NCBI GenBank assembly: GCA_024103385.1
Contig: JAGFIT010000093.1
Location: 1 to 51,994, forward strand
Origin: Vicingus serpentipes
GTDB taxonomy: Bacteria; Bacteroidota; Bacteroidia; Flavobacteriales_E; Vicingaceae
DNA length: 51,994 nucleotides
Direction of reading: 5' to 3'
Shown: positions 22,762 through 35,542 of the stretch, in pieces
Position numbering within the stretch: position 1 is the stretch's first letter
How the letters are laid out: every line of letters begins with the position of its first letter
Program-made: the position numbers and the translations under genes
The notes under the pieces: generated by a model
Database searches by the model: none
What the model saw: only the letters and a program-made list of their open reading frames with translations
Told to the model about the DNA's origin: nothing

Positions 22762-23571
22762 TTAATTACTCTGGGGAGTATAATAAGATTCCGCATTAGG
22801 TAACCATTCTTTTATCCGTTCTATACGCGTATCGTGACCTGGATGAGTACTTAAAAATTCTGGAACACTTCCTCCTCCTCCAGCAGCACTCATTCTTTCC
22901 CAAAAAGGAATAGCTTCTTTTGGCTGATAACCAGCCATTGCCATAAACACCATCCCTAACTTATCTGCTTCACTCTCCTGATTTCTACTAAACGCTAATA
23001 TTCCTAACCCTGCTCCAACTCCGTAAGCTCCCAAAAATAAAGCTTGGGTTTCTTGAGGTTTATCTTTCATGTAAACAGCTATCGCTACACCTCCTGCAGC
23101 TGCTAATATTCCTTGACTCATTCTTTCATTACCATGTCTGGCAATTGCATGTGCTATTTCATGTCCCATCACTACGGCTAACCCTTCGTCTGACTGCGCC
23201 ACTGGTAATAATCCTTGATAAACGACAACCTTCCCACCAGGCATTGCCCAAGCATTAACCAAGTTTTGATTCACCAAATTAAATTCCCATTTGTAATTTT
23301 TAATTCTTTTTGATTGATTATTATCGTGCATATATTTTTCTACTGCATGAGCTATTCTAGCTCCTACTCTCTTAACTTGTTTTGTCTCAGCAATACCATC
23401 AGAAGAAGGAGGATTCTCCTGTAAAAATGTACGATATTGCACTAAACTCATACTCATCAATTCACTTTCTGGAATTAATGTTATTTGCTTCCTACCAGAT
23501 ATAGGTACCTTCGCACACGATAAAATACCAATTACAACAACTACGATTAAATAAATTTTAATTGATTTCAT
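22762..23571 (-). CDS. M48 family metalloprotease, lipoprotein (LoiP/BepA-like)
   Basis: A 269-residue zinc metalloprotease anchored by a lipid. The signal peptide ends in the lipobox ILSC with the lipidated Cys at 19. The zinc site HEIAH is at 137-141 and the third ligand is in ESEAD (199-203). A Gly/Ala-rich stretch at 154-195 could be a hydrophobic plug. Homologues degrade misfolded outer-membrane proteins. It is the last gene of a minus-strand run, ten bases after clpS, in which two giant envelope proteins are encoded, so a quality-control role for those proteins is attractive. No PDZ or TPR domain is seen, so LoiP-like fits better than BepA. Confidence 0.9.
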   Translation of the reverse strand: MKSIKIYLIVVVVIGILSCAKVPISGRKQITLIPESELMSMSLVQYRTFLQENPPSSDGIAETKQVKRVGARIAHAVEKYMHDNNQSKRIKNYKWEFNLVNQNLVNAWAMPGGKVVVYQGLLPVAQSDEGLAVVMGHEIAHAIARHGNERMSQGILAAAGGVAIAVYMKDKPQETQALFLGAYGVGAGLGILAFSRNQESEADKLGMVFMAMAGYQPKEAIPFWERMSAAGGGGSVPEFLSTHPGHDTRIERIKEWLPNAESYYTPQSN

Positions 23572-23581
23572 GATGACAATT

Positions 23582-23857
23582 TTATTCTACCTCTACAGTT
23601 AATCCTTTACTTGACAATGCTTCATGCATTGGTTTCAAATCCTCAAAGGCTCCCTTTTTCACTACACATTTCCCTTTATAATGAACTAAAAAGGCACATT
23701 GTTCCGCTTGGATTACATCATGACCACACACCTTAACCAATAAGTTAATTACGTAATCAAAAGTATTCACATCATCATTGTATAAAACAATTTGGTGTTC
23801 TTTAGAAATAATTTCTTCCAAATCAATTTCGAATGCTTCTTTTGTTTGATTAATCAT
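23582..23857 (-). CDS. clpS: ClpS adaptor protein
   Basis: A 91-residue adaptor that delivers proteins with bulky N-terminal residues (the N-degron pathway) to the ClpAP/ClpCP protease. The core matches well: HQIVLYNDDVNTFDYVINLL contains the ligand-binding NDD segment, followed by CGHDVIQAEQCAFLVHYKGKCVVKKG. N- and C-terminal extensions are short. It lies three bases after giant B and ten before the M48 protease gene, so it is very probably co-transcribed with both. The prmA-clpS association occurs in other Flavobacteriales genomes as far as I recall; here two giant genes sit between the pair. Confidence 0.93.
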   Translation of the reverse strand: MINQTKEAFEIDLEEIISKEHQIVLYNDDVNTFDYVINLLVKVCGHDVIQAEQCAFLVHYKGKCVVKKGAFEDLKPMHEALSSKGLTVEVE

Positions 23858-23860
23858 TTT

Positions 23861-26800
23861 TTAATTATTTTTTTGAATTTCTAATGCCTCTTCAACAGTA
23901 ATCTGAATATTATCTTTATAAGCAATTACTTTTGGGTTTTCCACCCCCATCTCTTTCATTTCTATTTGTGTATCAATAGCTGATTGATAATCCGGATAAG
24001 AACCTATCGTATAAATCGTCTTTCCATTTTCTTCATAGCTCTTTACCCCTCTTCCTGTTAACCTTAAAAATATTCCAGCAGCTTCTATAGGAACTTCTTC
24101 CTCATATTCTCCTAATTGTACTTTGTACCTCACATCAACTTCCTGATTAATCGATTCTGACTCCTCATTAGGCTCATTAATTTCTTCAACTAGCACCTCT
24201 TCATTTAATTTCTCCTTCGGTGCTTCTTGCTGAGGCTCTAGATTACTAATAATAGTATTTCCTAACAATTCATTCGCTTGTGCTACAGAAATTCTTGCAC
24301 CACCATTGTAAGCTATAATAAATGCATCGCTAATTCCTATACTTCTAATTCTCTCTTTCTCGGTATTAGCTGCATCCAAATTTTTATGAACTCCAGAAGT
24401 ATATCTAATTAATCCATTCTGAATTCGTTCACTATTGATAGGTGTTAAATTATTCAATTGATCAGCAGTTATAGGCTTGGAGTAAACACCTACTTGAATC
24501 GTATAGAAAACCCCATCAATATTTCTCACATCTGTAGAAACACCATCTTTTACTTCTTCTGTAACTGGGCTAATTTTGGGTGCAACTTCGGGTATTGTCG
24601 TATTCTCTTTTTCTGTTGAAGTATTGGTTTCTTGAGGTAAAGGTCGCTCCGGTGTGTTATTAGTCACCAGATCATCTCCTCCATCTTGCATCGCTCTTGC
24701 TTTACTAATATTGATTCGTTCTCCATTAAAAAATGCTACTACAAAAGCATCACTATACCCAATTGATTGTATATCGGATTTTGCTTCGTTGGCCGCATTA
24801 AATTTCTTAAAAAATCCTGCTGTATAACGTGTAATTCCATTACCAGCATCCTCCGCCATAATAGGAGCAAATCCTTTAAAATGACTCTGAGGAATAGGAT
24901 TTCTAAACGCTCCTATCTGTACTTTAAATACTAACCCTTCAGGTAATTTTGGAGATACTGGTATTGGCTTATTATCACTATACTCCGCCTGGTTATTATT
25001 CAAAACAAAAATTGATTCTTCCAATACTGTTGGTATTTCGTCAATATTAACTGGTGTTGAATTTATTGGCTTTTTTGTTACTACAGGCTCTGTTGCCTCT
25101 TTGTTTGTTACTTCCGTTTGTTCTTTTTGTACAGGCTTATTTACTGCAAAATTTTCTCTTTCCTCCTCTATTATTGGCTGTTCCTCCGCAACAAGATCTT
25201 CTTCAGTTACTTCATTAGTTACAGGAGTATTATCCACTATATCATCCGAAACAATAGTGGATTTATCCAATAAACTACTATTGTATGTTTCCACTTTTTC
25301 AATAGCTTTAATATTTTCAGCCACCTCCGAATTAGCTAAAATTTCATCATTCTTTTTATTATTTTCTAATGCTTGCTTCTCTTTTTCTGTAGCACTCTTT
25401 CTTAATTCAGCTGCTTTTATTTCATTCTCCTCAATCATTCCTTTTAATTTCTCAATCTGACTACGCTTTTTCGCTTTATCTTCTTCTGTTTGTGCTCCAG
25501 CAAGCATTGCATTTAAACTAATTTCCAATGTTTTTTGATCATCAGCTTCTTCCTGCACTTTATCAGCCTCTATATATTCTACCTGTGCCTCTTTAATCAA
25601 TCTTCTTGTTTCTTTTTTTGTATTCGAATACATTTGATAATCTTCCGATTCTCTAGTTTCTTTTATCTCAGCTGGAGAAAGGCTAGTAACCAAAGTCGTT
25701 TCTTCTGGAGTTAATTGCTCATTAGCAACAGCCGTTCTAGTCTCCGATAAATCTTTTAAAAGTGTTTCTTCTTCTGTTTTCATTTCTTCTGCTTGCGCAT
25801 ACAATACTTCCGCTTCTTTCATCTCCTTTTCTGCTGCTGCGGATAATTCATTAGCTTCTGCAATTAAAGGTTCTCTCTCTTTTTTCTTTTTTACCGTTTC
25901 CGCACTATCTGTTAATATTTTTGCTTCTGCTTTTAAAACTTCAGCCTCTGTTTCTAAACTTTTTGCTTCAGCTTCCACATCAGAAGAAGGTAAAGCAATA
26001 GCTAACGGTTCATATACTTCAAAAGGTTCTACATCACCCGTAGCACTTGTGGTGGTGTTGTCAATTAACTTGTTTTGAGATGTTGTAGGCTTAGTTTCAA
26101 CTACTTTTGGTAGTGAACTTGGTGTTTCATTTTCATTAGTTGGTTCCTCTTCTTCAACTGGAGGTAAATCATCTGCTGCTGTTAAATCATCAACAGGCTC
26201 TTTTTGGGTAGAAACTTCTGTATTAATTGGCGGAGTTTTGCTCGCCAAGCTTTCTGTTGGTCCTTCGTTCTCAAAAGTCTTTTCTGTTTCAACCAACGTG
26301 AGTACTTCATCACCACCTTGCTCAAGGTATAATGCAATGGCTTGATTTTGCTTTTCAATAGATTTCATTTCTAACTCATAAGCTTCTTGCAATACAATTT
26401 CTTTAGAAACAAAACTATTTGAAGCCTCCGCTTTTTTTCTTTTTTCTTTCGCTTGCTTATAAAAAATGTTCGATTCATCTGCTAATAACCCTGCCATAAC
26501 AGCTGCCTCTGAATCAGGGGTTTTATTTGATTTTTTTATGTTAGATAATGTAGCCTCATTATTATAAAACTCATTTCTGTTGGCATTTTCATAAATCGTA
26601 GCTACTTGATCTTGTTTTTCATATGACTGCTTTTTCAATTCATCTGCTTTAGAAGATGCCTCTCCTTTTTCTTCTATAGATGTCATATTATCCATAGAGT
26701 TAATTAATATCTCTGCTTCTTCATTTAATTGGGCTGCTTCACTTTTTAGTTGAGCAACCTTTTCCATTTCCTTTTTCGATTGTTGAGATTTATACTCGTA

Positions 26801-29800
26801 CTTATTATTGTACTTCAGATTAGAAAACTCATCTTCTTCTGCATTTAAATTATTAGCGGTTAAATTTTCTTCCTTAACTGCATATTGATTTAAACTAACT
26901 TTCTCTTGCTCTACAGGTTCTTTCTTCTTTTCTGGAGTTAATTGATTTACTGGTTCTTCTTTTTTTACCTCTACAACTTTTTCTTTCTCAACTGGTATTT
27001 TCTCTTCAACCCCATTCTCTTTTTCTGGTTCTTTCTCTTCTACCACGTCAGTCAAAACAGGATCTGTTTCTTCTTCAACTACCTCTGGCTGAACAGATTC
27101 TGCTTGCATTTCGTAAAGTGCAGCATATTCTTTTTGCTCTTGCAAACTATTCTCTAACATTGCTATTTCTATCTCTAAATCTTGCTTACTTGCTTCATCA
27201 ACAGTCGGTAATTCAGATTTCTTATTGGCTATGTCTTTTTCGATTGATTGTGCCCATTTCTTATGTAAATTAGATTTTTGTGTATAGGCTTCATAGCTAT
27301 CTTCATCTGCCAATTGACTCAATTCTTCAGTGTATTGGGCTTCATAATCCCCTACATTCTCATTTAGTCCAGCATTATTCTCGTCAATTTCTTTTTCTTC
27401 CTCTTTTAATCCATCAGTTTCATTGTTAGTATCTTCAGCAACAACACTTAGTAAATCAATCTCTTTTTGTTTCTCAGCCTTTAAATTCTTTAGTGATTTA
27501 ATCTTATTTTTCAGCTGGTCTTTCTCTCCCTCACTAGTTGATGCATCTAACTGATGATTTCTTATTTCAATTTCTTCATCAATAGAAGCAATCCACTCTT
27601 TATTCACTTTAGCGATTAACATTGATTTTTCTTCTTCATCGTCAACAACATCCACATCAGCAAGTGCAGCACCATATTGAGTATTATAATCAATTAATTT
27701 TCCTTCATCATCAATTATTTTATACTCTTCTTTATGGTCGTCTAATTTATATGAAAACACTTCCATGGCTGTCGTTTCTTCTTCTGGAGGATAAAAACCT
27801 AGTAACCCTTCATCCTCAAAATAGGAAATATTATTTTCTATTTTTAATTTTTCAATATCGTCTACTTTTGGTTTTGAAGTATTAACAGCTTCTAACTGTG
27901 CAACAACTTCTTTAGACACCTCATATTTGTTTTGAGCTGCTGCATAATCTTTATACAGATTGCCTGCTCGCTTTTTTGCTGCATCCAAATCAAACTCAAC
28001 ATCTTCCATATCAATTTCAAGTGTTTTCAACTGTAAATCAATCTCCTCTATTTCTTTTTTCTTCTTTGTTGAATTCTTTTTTTCTTCTAATTGATTAATC
28101 GATTTGATTAAATTGTTTTTTCTATTGTTTAACTCAGCAAGATTATTTACTTCATCTCTATAAGCCTCTTCAGTTTCTTGATAAGTAGTTTCTGCTATAT
28201 CTTTTTCTGATGATAAGGCGGATTCGGTTTGGTAAGTAGCTGAAGCAATTTCATCTAATTTTTCTTTTCCTTCTTCTACAGTTCCTCTATCTCCCGAAGC
28301 GGCTTTTTCTTGTATTGCTTTTATAGCCTTTGTATCTGATGCTCTTTCATTGGCTTCATTTTCTAGAGACCGAGCTATATTCATCACTGCTGCAGTTTCA
28401 TTAATTAAACGTGCTGCCTCTAGTTTCTTCTTGTCCGCTGTTGCTTGCTTTTCTTTTCTTTCTACATCATTTATAGCAACATCTGCCTCTTTATACAAAG
28501 CCTTTGCTTCTTCAAATAATTTTTTAGCTTTAGCACTTTTCTCTTGAGCTATTTGATAAGAATAATTAGCTTGATTTCTAGATGTTTCTGCCTGATTAAT
28601 TAGCTTCTGAGATTGTTCTTGAACTTGTTCAACCAATTCTTCATCAGATAAGTTAGCATAATTAGAATTCTCTTCATTGTTTTTCTCTTTCAATGCATTG
28701 TTCAAGCTAGTTTGTAGTGAAGTATTGAGCGCTTCTTCTTCAGTAGTATTTACATCAAGGTTTGCTCTGGCTTTAAGGATATTTTGAACCACTAGTGGAT
28801 CAGTTATATCAAATTCATCAGATTCATCAAATAGGTTTTTAACTACTAATTTTTCAGCATCTCCTTCCCCTACTAACCTCAATTCTTGTTTTAGAGCTCT
28901 GTATTTTTCTAGTACTGGAACATCGATAATGGCCGAATGAACTGGAGCATCACTAGTTGTTTCAACTAATATTTTATATTTCCCTCCATTGCTTGGAAGA
29001 AGCAACATATACTCTCCAGAAACATCATGCGTTTTATAAACTCCATACCTCTTATCTTGCTCAACATCCTTTATAGTTATTGTTGCAGACTTCATAGCAG
29101 GATTTGCTTCTGCCAGAAAAATTCCTTTGATAGCGGTGTTTTTAACTGGTTGCGGATCTACAGTTACACGATAAACCGTTAACTCTCCTTGTTTACTTGC
29201 TCTTGAAGAGGCAAAGTAAGCTAACTTATTGTCAATGTCCGATATATACAGTATATCATCTCCTGGTGTATTGATTGGAAAATCTAAATTTTCTGGTACT
29301 GACCATTTTCCTGTTGTTGAATTATATGTCGATTTAAAAACATCATACCCTCCCATACTATTATAACCTTTAGAACTAAAGTAGAGCGTTTTCCCATCAG
29401 GATGTAAAAAGGGATAATCTTCATCGTATTTCGTGTTGATACCTTCTCCTAAATTAATTGGTTTGCTCCATTCTGTTCCGCCAGTTTTTTCAACTCTAAA
29501 TAAATCTCTACCATTCTTTCCATCTGTTCCATAAGAAGAATAAATAACCACATCTTTAGTTTCCCCCAAATAAACTAAGGATGTTTCTTCTTTTTTAACA
29601 TCTAATTTAGATTTAAACTCATCTGGTTTAACAATTACCTTCCCTCCTATACCTTTTAAAGAGTAGGATCTAAAAAAATCTGCTTCTTTAATTTCTTTTT
29701 TATCTAACACTCCTATATCAACAATATTTTTAAGCAAACTCTTTCCATTCTCACACATCTCTACTTCTCTTTCTATATTGTACTTTTGAAGTTGTTTAGC

Positions 29801-30190
29801 GTCTGCTTTTCCTTTAAATTTGTTGTAATAAACAATTGCTGGATCAAACTCATAATTAAAATGATGCGCTTTGGCTAAAAAATAATATGCTTCTGGATCC
29901 ACCGTTGATTTGGAAACTGCAAATTTTAAATACTTCAACGATTTTTCTTTATCCCTCGTTGCGAAGAGCAAACATGCTCCATATTTATAGTTGTAATTAA
30001 GATCCTTAGGGTATAAACTCAATAATTGAGCAAACAATGGCAATGCCTCATTATATTGCTCTTTATCAAACAATTCATCCGAAGCTGTTTTCAACTCTTC
30101 CTCCGATGAGTATTGAGCGCAAACACTAAGTGTCAATGTCAAAAAAGCTATAAAAATAAATAGTTGTTTATGTAGCTGTTTTTTTATCAT
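23861..30190 (-). CDS. Giant PorE-like envelope protein: TPR, PD40, coiled coil, three SPOR domains
   Basis: A 2109-residue exported protein. Signal peptide 1-25 (VCAQ), TPR-like helices about 28-130, PD40 beta-propeller blades about 205-350 (EDYPFLHPDGKTLYFSSKG; YDVFKS), and a carboxypeptidase-regulatory-like sandwich about 355-440. Next comes a Glu/Lys/Ala-rich region about 480-1740, with heptad-like blocks broken by Glu/Pro/Thr linkers. Three C-terminal SPOR domains start near 1750, 1892 and 2017 (LVFKVQIGAF, FYTIQVGVYSK, VRYKVQLGEYEE). SPOR domains bind denuded septal peptidoglycan. The first three modules match PorE of the type IX system, which ends instead in an OmpA domain. I infer a periplasm-spanning tether. 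It lies three bases before clpS. Confidence 0.85.
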   Translation of the reverse strand: MIKKQLHKQLFIFIAFLTLTLSVCAQYSSEEELKTASDELFDKEQYNEALPLFAQLLSLYPKDLNYNYKYGACLLFATRDKEKSLKYLKFAVSKSTVDPEAYYFLAKAHHFNYEFDPAIVYYNKFKGKADAKQLQKYNIEREVEMCENGKSLLKNIVDIGVLDKKEIKEADFFRSYSLKGIGGKVIVKPDEFKSKLDVKKEETSLVYLGETKDVVIYSSYGTDGKNGRDLFRVEKTGGTEWSKPINLGEGINTKYDEDYPFLHPDGKTLYFSSKGYNSMGGYDVFKSTYNSTTGKWSVPENLDFPINTPGDDILYISDIDNKLAYFASSRASKQGELTVYRVTVDPQPVKNTAIKGIFLAEANPAMKSATITIKDVEQDKRYGVYKTHDVSGEYMLLLPSNGGKYKILVETTSDAPVHSAIIDVPVLEKYRALKQELRLVGEGDAEKLVVKNLFDESDEFDITDPLVVQNILKARANLDVNTTEEEALNTSLQTSLNNALKEKNNEENSNYANLSDEELVEQVQEQSQKLINQAETSRNQANYSYQIAQEKSAKAKKLFEEAKALYKEADVAINDVERKEKQATADKKKLEAARLINETAAVMNIARSLENEANERASDTKAIKAIQEKAASGDRGTVEEGKEKLDEIASATYQTESALSSEKDIAETTYQETEEAYRDEVNNLAELNNRKNNLIKSINQLEEKKNSTKKKKEIEEIDLQLKTLEIDMEDVEFDLDAAKKRAGNLYKDYAAAQNKYEVSKEVVAQLEAVNTSKPKVDDIEKLKIENNISYFEDEGLLGFYPPEEETTAMEVFSYKLDDHKEEYKIIDDEGKLIDYNTQYGAALADVDVVDDEEEKSMLIAKVNKEWIASIDEEIEIRNHQLDASTSEGEKDQLKNKIKSLKNLKAEKQKEIDLLSVVAEDTNNETDGLKEEEKEIDENNAGLNENVGDYEAQYTEELSQLADEDSYEAYTQKSNLHKKWAQSIEKDIANKKSELPTVDEASKQDLEIEIAMLENSLQEQKEYAALYEMQAESVQPEVVEEETDPVLTDVVEEKEPEKENGVEEKIPVEKEKVVEVKKEEPVNQLTPEKKKEPVEQEKVSLNQYAVKEENLTANNLNAEEDEFSNLKYNNKYEYKSQQSKKEMEKVAQLKSEAAQLNEEAEILINSMDNMTSIEEKGEASSKADELKKQSYEKQDQVATIYENANRNEFYNNEATLSNIKKSNKTPDSEAAVMAGLLADESNIFYKQAKEKRKKAEASNSFVSKEIVLQEAYELEMKSIEKQNQAIALYLEQGGDEVLTLVETEKTFENEGPTESLASKTPPINTEVSTQKEPVDDLTAADDLPPVEEEEPTNENETPSSLPKVVETKPTTSQNKLIDNTTTSATGDVEPFEVYEPLAIALPSSDVEAEAKSLETEAEVLKAEAKILTDSAETVKKKKEREPLIAEANELSAAAEKEMKEAEVLYAQAEEMKTEEETLLKDLSETRTAVANEQLTPEETTLVTSLSPAEIKETRESEDYQMYSNTKKETRRLIKEAQVEYIEADKVQEEADDQKTLEISLNAMLAGAQTEEDKAKKRSQIEKLKGMIEENEIKAAELRKSATEKEKQALENNKKNDEILANSEVAENIKAIEKVETYNSSLLDKSTIVSDDIVDNTPVTNEVTEEDLVAEEQPIIEEERENFAVNKPVQKEQTEVTNKEATEPVVTKKPINSTPVNIDEIPTVLEESIFVLNNNQAEYSDNKPIPVSPKLPEGLVFKVQIGAFRNPIPQSHFKGFAPIMAEDAGNGITRYTAGFFKKFNAANEAKSDIQSIGYSDAFVVAFFNGERINISKARAMQDGGDDLVTNNTPERPLPQETNTSTEKENTTIPEVAPKISPVTEEVKDGVSTDVRNIDGVFYTIQVGVYSKPITADQLNNLTPINSERIQNGLIRYTSGVHKNLDAANTEKERIRSIGISDAFIIAYNGGARISVAQANELLGNTIISNLEPQQEAPKEKLNEEVLVEEINEPNEESESINQEVDVRYKVQLGEYEEEVPIEAAGIFLRLTGRGVKSYEENGKTIYTIGSYPDYQSAIDTQIEMKEMGVENPKVIAYKDNIQITVEEALEIQKNN

Positions 30191-33200: not shown

Positions 33201-34715
33201 GTCATCATAATTATACAACACAAACCCTTTATTAGAGAGGTCTAGCAACATAGATTCTAATTGTGTAAAAGAAAATCTAGTAGCTTCAGCCAATTCTTCC
33301 ATAGTAATAAAGTTGGTATCCAATTGATCAACTAATTTTTTAATTTGATAAAATGGATGCACATCATTCATTCCCATAATAGAAGCATATGCACGTAAAC
33401 TAAAATAATCAGAGGAGGTAAAAACAGCATCTATTTTAGTTCCTCCCTTCATGTTTTGAAATTCTATCATTGGAGAATCTATTTTCCAATTTAATGATTC
33501 AAAATCCATATCCACTTGATGATATGAATTGAAGTAAGGAGTTAATTTAATTCCTTGATGATCCCTAATTAAAACAATATTTCTATCTTGAATAAAAAAC
33601 TTAAAAGACAATCCTGGATGATAAATAGAATCTTCTTTAATATAAAATGTTGCCGAAGCAATTTCTGCAACAACACGTTCTGGTTTAATAATAAATGTTT
33701 TAGATGCCATTTTCAAAAAGGGCTTTTCATCTCTATAAAAAATCACATAAGCATCATCATCCCCCACACCCCTTCCCATTACTCTTCTACCATTTAAAGA
33801 AAAACCTCCTATGTAGTCAACTCCTTTAGAAATATCTTTTATTTCTAATTTAGAAGCATAAGAGGTAAAACGAGGATATGTTGCTTTATCTGGCTTAACA
33901 TTAGCCAACACCTTCTCTTCCAGTGTTCCTTTAAGTGCTTGATCAAAATAATAGTAATCGTAAAACATCACATCCTTAATACTGTAGGTTGGTGATTTTA
34001 CAGAGAACCTATACTCATCAATTTCGGCAAAAACAGAATCAGCAGGAAACCCAGCTCTTTCCCATGTTATTTTTCCTCCTTGACCTACCCACTTTTGTTC
34101 TGTAGGATAATAAATCCCTTTAGTATTGTTAATTACCGAGCTATCCCCTTTTGAATAACATTTTAACGTTAAAGCTTCAAATTCTATTGTTGGTAAACTA
34201 TCATAACCAAAAACATAATTATTATTACTAGCTGCCCATACATTTGCTGAAGATTTATAAAGTACATTTTCTGAAAATAAGGCATTACAGGCATCCAAAT
34301 AATCTGTAAACATTTTTTTACTTTTTCCATTAACTAACTTAATAACAATTTCTTGCCAAGCAAAGAAGCTTTTTTCTGTTTGGTACTTGCTATTAACAAA
34401 TTGAGAAATAGTAAACAAGTAATTTTTAAAATCCGGAAAAGCTTTTTTTCGTTTATTAAGCATCAAATTAGCCACTCTATAAACACTTTCTCGCTGTTTC
34501 TCGGAAAACTTACCTCCAAACCAGTCCCAAGAGAACTCATCCATTACCAGTTTTCCATCCAACTGCCTTGAATAAGTCATAAATGTTTCCATCTCCTCAA
34601 AAAACAAGGTAGAGTCTGATGAAAATTCCTTGACTTTTGTTTGAGAATTCGCCTGAATTGCAATAAAAATGAGTAGAAATCCAATAATATTTTTATACAT
34701 ATGCGTTATTTTCAT
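30261..34715 (-). CDS. Giant secreted beta-rich protein of unknown function
   Basis: A 1484-residue exported protein with no assignable family. The ATG at 34715 is chosen because it overlaps the prmA stop as ATGA; the longer frame begins with TTG inside prmA. Signal peptide about 1-25 (FLLIFIAIQANSQ). Residues about 30-200 are helical. Most of the rest is a long succession of amphipathic strands, with recurring phrases such as GGFSLNGRRVMGRG and EGLKGNGSLKYI. A helical patch near 470-530 resembles a winged-helix fold. The C-terminal 180 residues are mixed, ending in basic and acidic runs. The strand pattern recalls OstA/AsmA-like bridging proteins, but this is only an impression. Giant B starts 70 bases downstream. 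Confidence 0.75.
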   Translation of the reverse strand: MKITHMYKNIIGFLLIFIAIQANSQTKVKEFSSDSTLFFEEMETFMTYSRQLDGKLVMDEFSWDWFGGKFSEKQRESVYRVANLMLNKRKKAFPDFKNYLFTISQFVNSKYQTEKSFFAWQEIVIKLVNGKSKKMFTDYLDACNALFSENVLYKSSANVWAASNNNYVFGYDSLPTIEFEALTLKCYSKGDSSVINNTKGIYYPTEQKWVGQGGKITWERAGFPADSVFAEIDEYRFSVKSPTYSIKDVMFYDYYYFDQALKGTLEEKVLANVKPDKATYPRFTSYASKLEIKDISKGVDYIGGFSLNGRRVMGRGVGDDDAYVIFYRDEKPFLKMASKTFIIKPERVVAEIASATFYIKEDSIYHPGLSFKFFIQDRNIVLIRDHQGIKLTPYFNSYHQVDMDFESLNWKIDSPMIEFQNMKGGTKIDAVFTSSDYFSLRAYASIMGMNDVHPFYQIKKLVDQLDTNFITMEELAEATRFSFTQLESMLLDLSNKGFVLYNYDDKTFQVKDRLIDWVNASGGNVDYDVIGFYSKIKGESNATLSLLNYDLKIRGVNSINVSDSQEVIIYPAKQEIILKKNRDFDFSGVVQAGRFDIMGSNFAFKYDEFKVDMPNVDSLRIYAETGQYDQENRPIIKPVKTVIEKINGDLLIDRGDNKSGVKSAHEYPILNSYRDSYVFYNRGSIQGGVYKKDDFYFHVEPFTIDSLDNFDNSALKFKGTFLSAGIFPDFDEVLTLQPDHSLGFVRGTPPGGYPMYGGKGTFNDTINMSHEGLKGNGSLKYIASTTYSNDFVFLPDSMHAVAQSYNVKENPVAVEFPPVEGENIMTRWYPKRDIMIHKEIDKPIAMYDMASFMHGQTMIQPEGLSGKGMFEFQKAELEANLIRFKFQDFESDTADFRLKDDSLANELSFSTVNVNAYVSFKDRNGTFKSNGGGSFIDFPQNQYICYMDEFKWYMDNDEIELSAGEAGSADAADVKLEGAQFISVHPEQDSLSFFSGKAKYDLRRKVITAEGVKFMNVADAMVYPDSGEVIIDKKAKMRTLNNARVVASYVTQNFDIYNSTINVFGRKDYSGSGYIDYVDEIEKKQTIFLQNLAVDSTGQTYATANIPIDTNFTLSPNYDFYGKVKLFANNQHLRFDGFSRIHHDCDLLPTNWFSFEAEINPNEIYIPIDSTTKDVTGNPLYASVMLSSDSLGIYSSFLNNKKKYSHVEVIPAKGYLFYDRVAEEYKISNKDKIQEMSFSGNYLSFNTKNCKVYGEGLIDLGGKTGQVNITTAGVVQHNQLDNDAIFDLVALVDFFFTDDALKKMVKKLEEASSLDPAKLDRPTFEKGLREVLGKKDADKLIGEASLYGEFKKLPESLRKTLVFNDLKLKWNDASRSYKSFGKIGIGNIDNKQINKYVEGKVELTKKRSGDLLTIYLEIERNNWYFFTYTRGVMQAISSDSDFNTAIQEVKPDKRKSKGEKGEEPYQFMYSTETKKKDFLRKFDD

Positions 34716-35542
34716 AGTTTTATTAAATGCAAAAGAGCCCAATCATTATTAGTTGCTATTTCAATCATCCTTAATTGATACTTTTGAGCTTCTTCCAATA
34801 ACACTTCTTTATCTGCTAAAAAGAATCCACTCAATAAAATACTTCCTTCTTGTTGCAATGATTTAGAATAATTTTTTAAATCTTGTAACAATATATTTCT
34901 ATTAATATTAGCTATAATAAGATCAAACTGACGATTAGATATCACTTCTGCTCCTCCCTGTTTAACCTCGATAGATAAATTATTATTTTTCTCAATATTT
35001 TCAATAGTATTACGATATGCCCATTCATCTATATCAACCGCCATTACATCACTTGCCTTTTTTAATTTAGCTAAAATAGCTAACACTCCTGTTCCACACC
35101 CCATATCCAATACAGTTTTATTTTCAAGCTCTAAACTTAGTATTTTCTTCACCATCAATGCAGTAGTTTCATGATGTCCGGTACCGAACGACATTTTAGG
35201 TTCAATAATAATATCAAATTCAATACTGTCTTCTTTTTGATGAAACGGAGCTCTTATATAACAAATATTGTCAATATTAATTGGATCAAAACTTTTCTCC
35301 CAAACTTCATTCCAATTTTGATCTTCAATTATCTTATAATCATAACTTGTTTCAAAATCAGTGTTCTTAAATATATTAACTTCATTTAAACTCCCCGCTT
35401 TAAAATCATTTTTTTGGATATAAGCTAAAAGCCCTTCAGGTGTATCAACAAAGCTTTCATATCCTAATTCAGCTAATTCAGCCATCAAGATATCCCTTCC
35501 TTCTAAAGGTGTTATTCGAGATGTTAATTCTATATAATCCAT
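34712..35542 (-). CDS. prmA: Ribosomal protein L11 methyltransferase PrmA
   Basis: A 276-residue SAM-dependent methyltransferase that trimethylates ribosomal protein L11. Motif I VLDMGCGTGVLAILAKL (about 143-159) and the acidic VMAVDIDEWA loop bind SAM. FDLIIANINRNILL supplies the NPPF-like active-site strand, and SFGTGHHETTALMV precedes the SAM site as in other PrmA proteins. The N-terminal L11-recognition domain (residues 1-110) is present, so the length is normal (E. coli 293). Its stop codon overlaps the start of giant A (ATGA), implying translational coupling. It is the first gene of the minus-strand run; a clear promoter was not found upstream. Confidence 0.92.
   Translation of the reverse strand: MDYIELTSRITPLEGRDILMAELAELGYESFVDTPEGLLAYIQKNDFKAGSLNEVNIFKNTDFETSYDYKIIEDQNWNEVWEKSFDPINIDNICYIRAPFHQKEDSIEFDIIIEPKMSFGTGHHETTALMVKKILSLELENKTVLDMGCGTGVLAILAKLKKASDVMAVDIDEWAYRNTIENIEKNNNLSIEVKQGGAEVISNRQFDLIIANINRNILLQDLKNYSKSLQQEGSILLSGFFLADKEVLLEEAQKYQLRMIEIATNNDWALLHLIKL

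Follow-up and report, generated by a model that had tools for sequence, protein, structure and literature searches.

A giant PorE-like protein ending in SPOR domains in Vicingus serpentipes

The giant gene, its head domains and its neighbours

The window analysed here is a stretch of 51,994 nucleotides of Vicingus serpentipes (contig JAGFIT010000093.1, assembly GCA_024103385.1). Its minus strand, which carries all the features of the window described below, contains at 23861..30190 an ATG-started open reading frame encoding a protein of 2109 amino acids, exactly within the limits originally predicted. This giant protein is composed of TPR, PD40 and CRD-like domains, a long arm and a SPOR tail, and has orthologues across its GTDB family and class. 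It starts with a signal peptide (residues 1-25, 30116..30190), read from the sequence, with a cut after SVCA and before Q. The signal peptide has no lipobox, and no convincing lipobox is found in the 89 full-length members of the family, three of which fit a loose pattern at a chance-like frequency.

The head comprises three domains. The TPR domain (residues 30-153, 29732..30103) is recognised by its helices in the AlphaFold model and by PDB TPR matches, which reach Z 16.6 over 119 residues in a structure search with the N-terminal model. The PD40 propeller (residues 159-346, 29153..29716) is supported by Pfam PD40, by the strands of the AlphaFold model and by a match to NCBIfam T9SS_PorE at residues 215-373. 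The CRD-like beta-sandwich (residues 352-439, 28874..29137) has seven strands with a pLDDT of about 90 and aligns with the PorE CRD. The AlphaFold model of residues 1-440, built with 42 sequences, has a mean pLDDT of 91 and displays successively a signal helix, TPR hairpins, a beta region and the CRD-like sandwich. A Pfam scan of the whole protein returns PD40 at 251-285 (E 7e-6), SPOR at 1757-1818 (E 8e-5) and a weak TPR. The TPR, PD40 propeller and regulatory beta-sandwich first proposed from the sequence are thus borne out. The propeller is nevertheless short: some 190 residues separate TPR from CRD, and the model shows there three full blades of three strands each, as well as extra strands, compared to the five blades reported for PorE, and its PDB matches are generic, with high rmsd.

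The usual gene order around the giant is tpiA-prmA-P1493-(plsY)-giant-clpS-M48. In the window, the ClpS gene (23582..23857, Pfam) is the next gene, 3 bp downstream of the giant, and clpS lies directly 3' of it in 37 of 52 loci. It is followed by the gene of a BepA/LoiP-like M48 metallopeptidase (22762..23571, Pfam and NCBIfam), found at most 1.5 kb downstream of the giant in 31/52 loci. Upstream, P1493 (30261..34742), a conserved secreted protein of about 1490 residues, has no convincing match in Pfam, NCBIfam or PDB. It is directly 5' of the giant in 42 of the 62 loci with enough flank, and is itself preceded by the gene of PrmA, the ribosomal protein L11 methyltransferase (34712..35542, Pfam and conserved order). 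P1493 is strongly conserved and commoner than the giant (324/395 class genomes), and several of its loci in other families keep the tpiA-prmA or plsY neighbours with no giant alongside. P1493 is thus ruled out as an obligate partner, and its link to the giant is positional rather than proven functional. No type IX secretion system (T9SS) genes are present in the cluster, and tpiA, prmA, plsY, clpS and the M48 gene are not division genes.

The arm and the SPOR tail

Between head and tail extends a charged, cysteine-free arm of 1290 residues (456-1745, 24956..28825), 36% of which are charged, interrupted by proline-rich acidic linkers. A charged coiled coil of about 1300 residues had been predicted here; the long charged region is found. 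A continuous heptad coiled coil gets weak support from the heptad test, mostly in the first third of the arm: 4% of 56-residue segments exceed the 99th percentile of shuffled sequences, a proportion that reaches 12% in this first third. An iterated profile identifies instead a degenerate repeat of about 57 residues, which 76 of 90 members carry one to seven times and which is absent from locally shuffled sequence. From its consensus, this repeat is read as a putative helix hairpin, made of two helices and a loop. In the giant, the profile finds three copies, at residues 1146-1201 (26588..26755; 34.6 bits), 1233-1289 (26324..26494; 51.5 bits) and 1409-1465 (25796..25966; 39.5 bits). A more fitting description of the arm is a charged stretch prone to form helices, which contains helix-hairpin repeats and linkers rich in proline.

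The tail contains three SPOR domains, as had been proposed. SPOR1 (residues 1748-1834, 24689..24949) is found by Pfam and AlphaFold, SPOR2 (1889-1975, 24266..24526) by its 38% identity to SPOR1 and by AlphaFold, and the diverged SPOR3 (2015-2105, 23876..24148), variable in the family, by AlphaFold and PDB SPOR matches. In the AlphaFold model of residues 1746-2109, each of the three folds as a domain of its own, with pLDDT above 90, and disordered linkers connect them. When this model is compared to the PDB, CwlC, RlpA, DamX, DedD and FtsN are among the best matches (Z 4.7-7.5 with VIA-align, aligned mainly to SPOR3), and Foldseek retrieves SPOR structures at a probability of 0.93-1.00. The PF05036 gathering cut-off of 21 bits is passed by the whole protein (23.4 bits) and by its C-terminal part (38.6 bits).

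Identity between SPOR1 and SPOR2 amounts to 38% (z 34), against 23% when SPOR3 is compared with either of them (z about 12). Across the family, the copies of SPOR1 and SPOR2 group by position, positional orthologues together, and their duplication is therefore ancestral; the duplication put forward in the original prediction is thus supported and is an ancient one. Both domains carry a glycan-site Gln (Gln1758 and Gln1899) in 53/53 members, and a third-strand Arg (Arg1788 and Arg1929) in 52/53, replaced once by Lys. In RlpA, Q270 and R309 contact denuded glycan (PMC6895207). The conserved Gln of SPOR1 and SPOR2 matches Q270, and the conserved Arg probably corresponds to R309. In SPOR3, the Gln is present in 22 of the 38 members having a residue at that position; SPOR3 being variable, not every SPOR domain need bind.

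A family of SPOR-ended proteins beside PorE

Of the 45 other genomes of the same GTDB family, 43 encode an orthologue of residues 1-440, with 46-70% identity. All 89 full-length relatives, 34 from whole genomes and 55 closed members from named contigs, end in two to four SPOR repeats. Their length ranges from 1638 to 2649 residues (median 2114). Among 53 C-termini scanned with Pfam, 52 match SPOR (E <= 0.01) and none has OmpA listed. The TPR-PD40-CRD-arm-SPOR layout is a family trait and not a chance assembly. The named records are mostly metagenome-assembled genomes assigned to Flavobacteriales, Crocinitomicaceae, Vicingaceae or Bacteroidia, with one isolate, Brumimicrobium salinarum. A phylum search with the single sequence gave one relative outside the family, with four candidates scored per genome; because of this number, it was replaced by profile searches. 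Widening the search to the order gave back the 46 family genomes and no others. At class level, the SPOR1 profile matches 300/395 genomes at E <= 1e-8, a count that includes unrelated SPOR proteins; open reading frames of 1500-2600 amino acids account for most of the strongest matches listed (above about 113 bits), and strong matches to the giant are confined to part of the sample.

The giant is homologous to PorE but is not PorE. With hhalign, the family profile aligns to the OmpA-ended PorE-like protein of the same genome at 99.8% probability (E 2.5e-28) over 389 columns, from TPR to CRD, the OmpA-ended protein having roughly 100 extra propeller residues. NCBIfam T9SS_PorE (NF052230) scores the giant at 82.7 bits, over residues 215-373, for a cut-off of 600, and CHU_0125_OmpA (NF053607) at 93.8 bits for a cut-off of 620. 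Both models match 42/42 family N-termini, far below these cut-offs. The best T9SS_PorE score of the genome belongs to a different gene, that of the OmpA-ended protein (G000:C48:26728-28656), which is full-length, has its OmpA domain recognised by Pfam and reaches 571.8 bits, just under the cut-off. As this protein and SprA are both present in the genome, the giant does not replace PorE. The proposal of a PorE-like protein in which SPOR replaces OmpA therefore stands for the domains, PorE-type head and SPOR tail, and fails if taken to mean the PorE of the cell.

The same genome (G000, 3.1 Mb) shows a striking expansion of about 20 TPR-PD40 paralogues, ending in OmpA, in SPOR or without any anchor. 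Proteins of about 985 residues (L073:4768-7737 and L074:5744-8698), made of a CRD and two tandem TPR-PD40 units with no SPOR or OmpA end, are sister to the giants in the tree of N-terminal regions. A helical protein of 388 residues (G000:C37:18127-19254; L185:4092-5258), with a single SPOR domain very like SPOR1, is found in 14 of the 46 family genomes.

A second SPOR-ended PorE-like protein, of 933 residues (G000:C48:20014-22812, equivalent to L184:4015-6816), is encoded on the same contig as the OmpA-ended PorE-like protein, at a distance of about 4 kb. With E <= 1e-100 as the limit, 33 of the 46 family genomes contain a homologue of it, some of the matches being OmpA-ended relatives. In the N-terminal tree, the giants make up a single clade; the 933-residue class is placed with L169, a paralogue ending in OmpA. 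That the SPOR ends of PorE-like proteins arose a single time is rejected, as the AU test refuses to join both SPOR-ended groups (p 1.4e-5). The exchange of OmpA and SPOR tails thus took place on at least two occasions.

Possible roles and comparison with known systems

We favour, with moderate confidence, the view that the giant, a periplasmic scaffold docking on an envelope complex and holding stem-stripped, probably septal, peptidoglycan, is the defining member of a conserved family in the PorE-like (TPR-PD40-CRD) superfamily. The protein would be exported by its ordinary signal peptide. Its TPR-propeller-CRD head, by analogy with PorE, probably docks on partners of an outer-membrane or trans-envelope complex, and its long, charged, partly repeat-built arm would space head from tail. 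OmpA_C domains bind the peptide stem, as seen in the structure of PorE (PMC7192894), whereas SPOR domains bind stem-less glycan, which is enriched at the septum (PMC6895207). Given their conserved binding residues and the biology of such domains, SPOR1 and SPOR2 could hold amidase-stripped glycan strands. Tethering of the giant to the septum, where stem-stripped glycan is enriched, is, as initially imagined, a reasonable inference from the same biology. Against this view, the neighbours of the giant are not division genes, P1493 is widespread at loci that lack the giant, and the septum is not the only place where SPOR domains work, since the FtsN-like protein RgsS of S. meliloti acts in polar growth (PMC7822825). 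Exchange of an OmpA for a SPOR tail would shift the scaffold from the wall at large to places where the wall is being remodelled, and the giant would work beside PorE, not in its place.

Alternatively, the giant could be a component of the T9SS or of the gliding machinery, a second PorE of longer reach anchoring secretion machines to remodelled septal or polar wall. The homology to PorE over the whole TPR-propeller-CRD head argues for this view, as does the presence of SprA in the genome and in 385/395 class genomes. However, a separate OmpA-ended PorE-like protein is already available, and the cluster of the giant is devoid of T9SS genes. Moreover, SprA is near-universal in the class and strong matches to the giant are found in only part of the sample, so that their co-occurrence is uninformative. 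We find a T9SS or gliding role unlikely.

A role in outer-membrane integrity or in division-coupled constriction, as for CHU_0125 or Tol-Pal, which associate a propeller and a wall-binding domain, here in one chain, appears doubtful as well. The CHU_0125 model matches every family N-terminus, loss of chu_0125 increases vesicle release and impairs outer-membrane integrity (PMC5891637), the TolB-Pal complex has served to model the propeller of PorE (PMC5053529), and a BepA/LoiP-like M48 peptidase is encoded nearby. Nevertheless, the score lies well under the curated cut-off, the giant has no OmpA domain, and the link to TolB comes from fold modelling of PorE, not of the giant. In a bolder form, which we hold to be quite improbable, the giant could be a dedicated division-site scaffold of Bacteroidota, a single chain taking on the tasks of both a wall anchor and a TolB-like propeller, whose paired SPOR domains would read stem-stripped septal glycan, that is a Tol-Pal-like constriction system made from PorE parts. 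Finally, it is very improbable that the SPOR domains have degenerated and that the giant serves purely as a structural or protein-binding scaffold of the periplasm, with no specificity for the wall: the Gln of SPOR3 is missing in many relatives and the Pfam scores are modest, but the Gln and Arg of SPOR1 and SPOR2 are kept across distant relatives, nearly all of whose C-termini match Pfam SPOR.

In a search of open-licence papers on SPOR domains together with type IX secretion, Flavobacterium, Bacteroidetes or gliding, this architecture was not found described. The closest known protein is the T9SS component PorE (PG1058/PGN_1296), whose TPR, PD40 propeller and CRD follow one another in the same order. 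The giant differs from it by its SPOR tail, with no OmpA_C-like domain, its arm of about 1290 residues, its shorter propeller, its threefold length and its other gene context. The OmpA domain of PorE, which grips peptide stems, is thought to secure the type IX machinery to the cell wall. P. gingivalis PorE is moreover N-terminally lipidated, whereas the giant has no lipobox; lipidation is, however, not universal among OmpA-ended PorE homologues (PMC7192894). The CHU_0125 family of OmpA-like outer membrane integrity proteins resembles all 42 giants in the propeller region, but these score under its cut-off and carry SPOR instead of OmpA. With FtsN, DamX, DedD, RlpA and CwlC, the giant shares the SPOR fold and the conserved Gln and Arg at the glycan site; it differs from them by its PorE-like head and by the two to four SPOR domains that terminate a very large, putatively periplasmic protein. 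The existence of a conserved sister family combining a PorE head with a SPOR tail suggests that interchangeable wall-binding ends could place similar Bacteroidota scaffolds on different peptidoglycan, and two separate exchanges between OmpA and SPOR in one superfamily make this idea testable.
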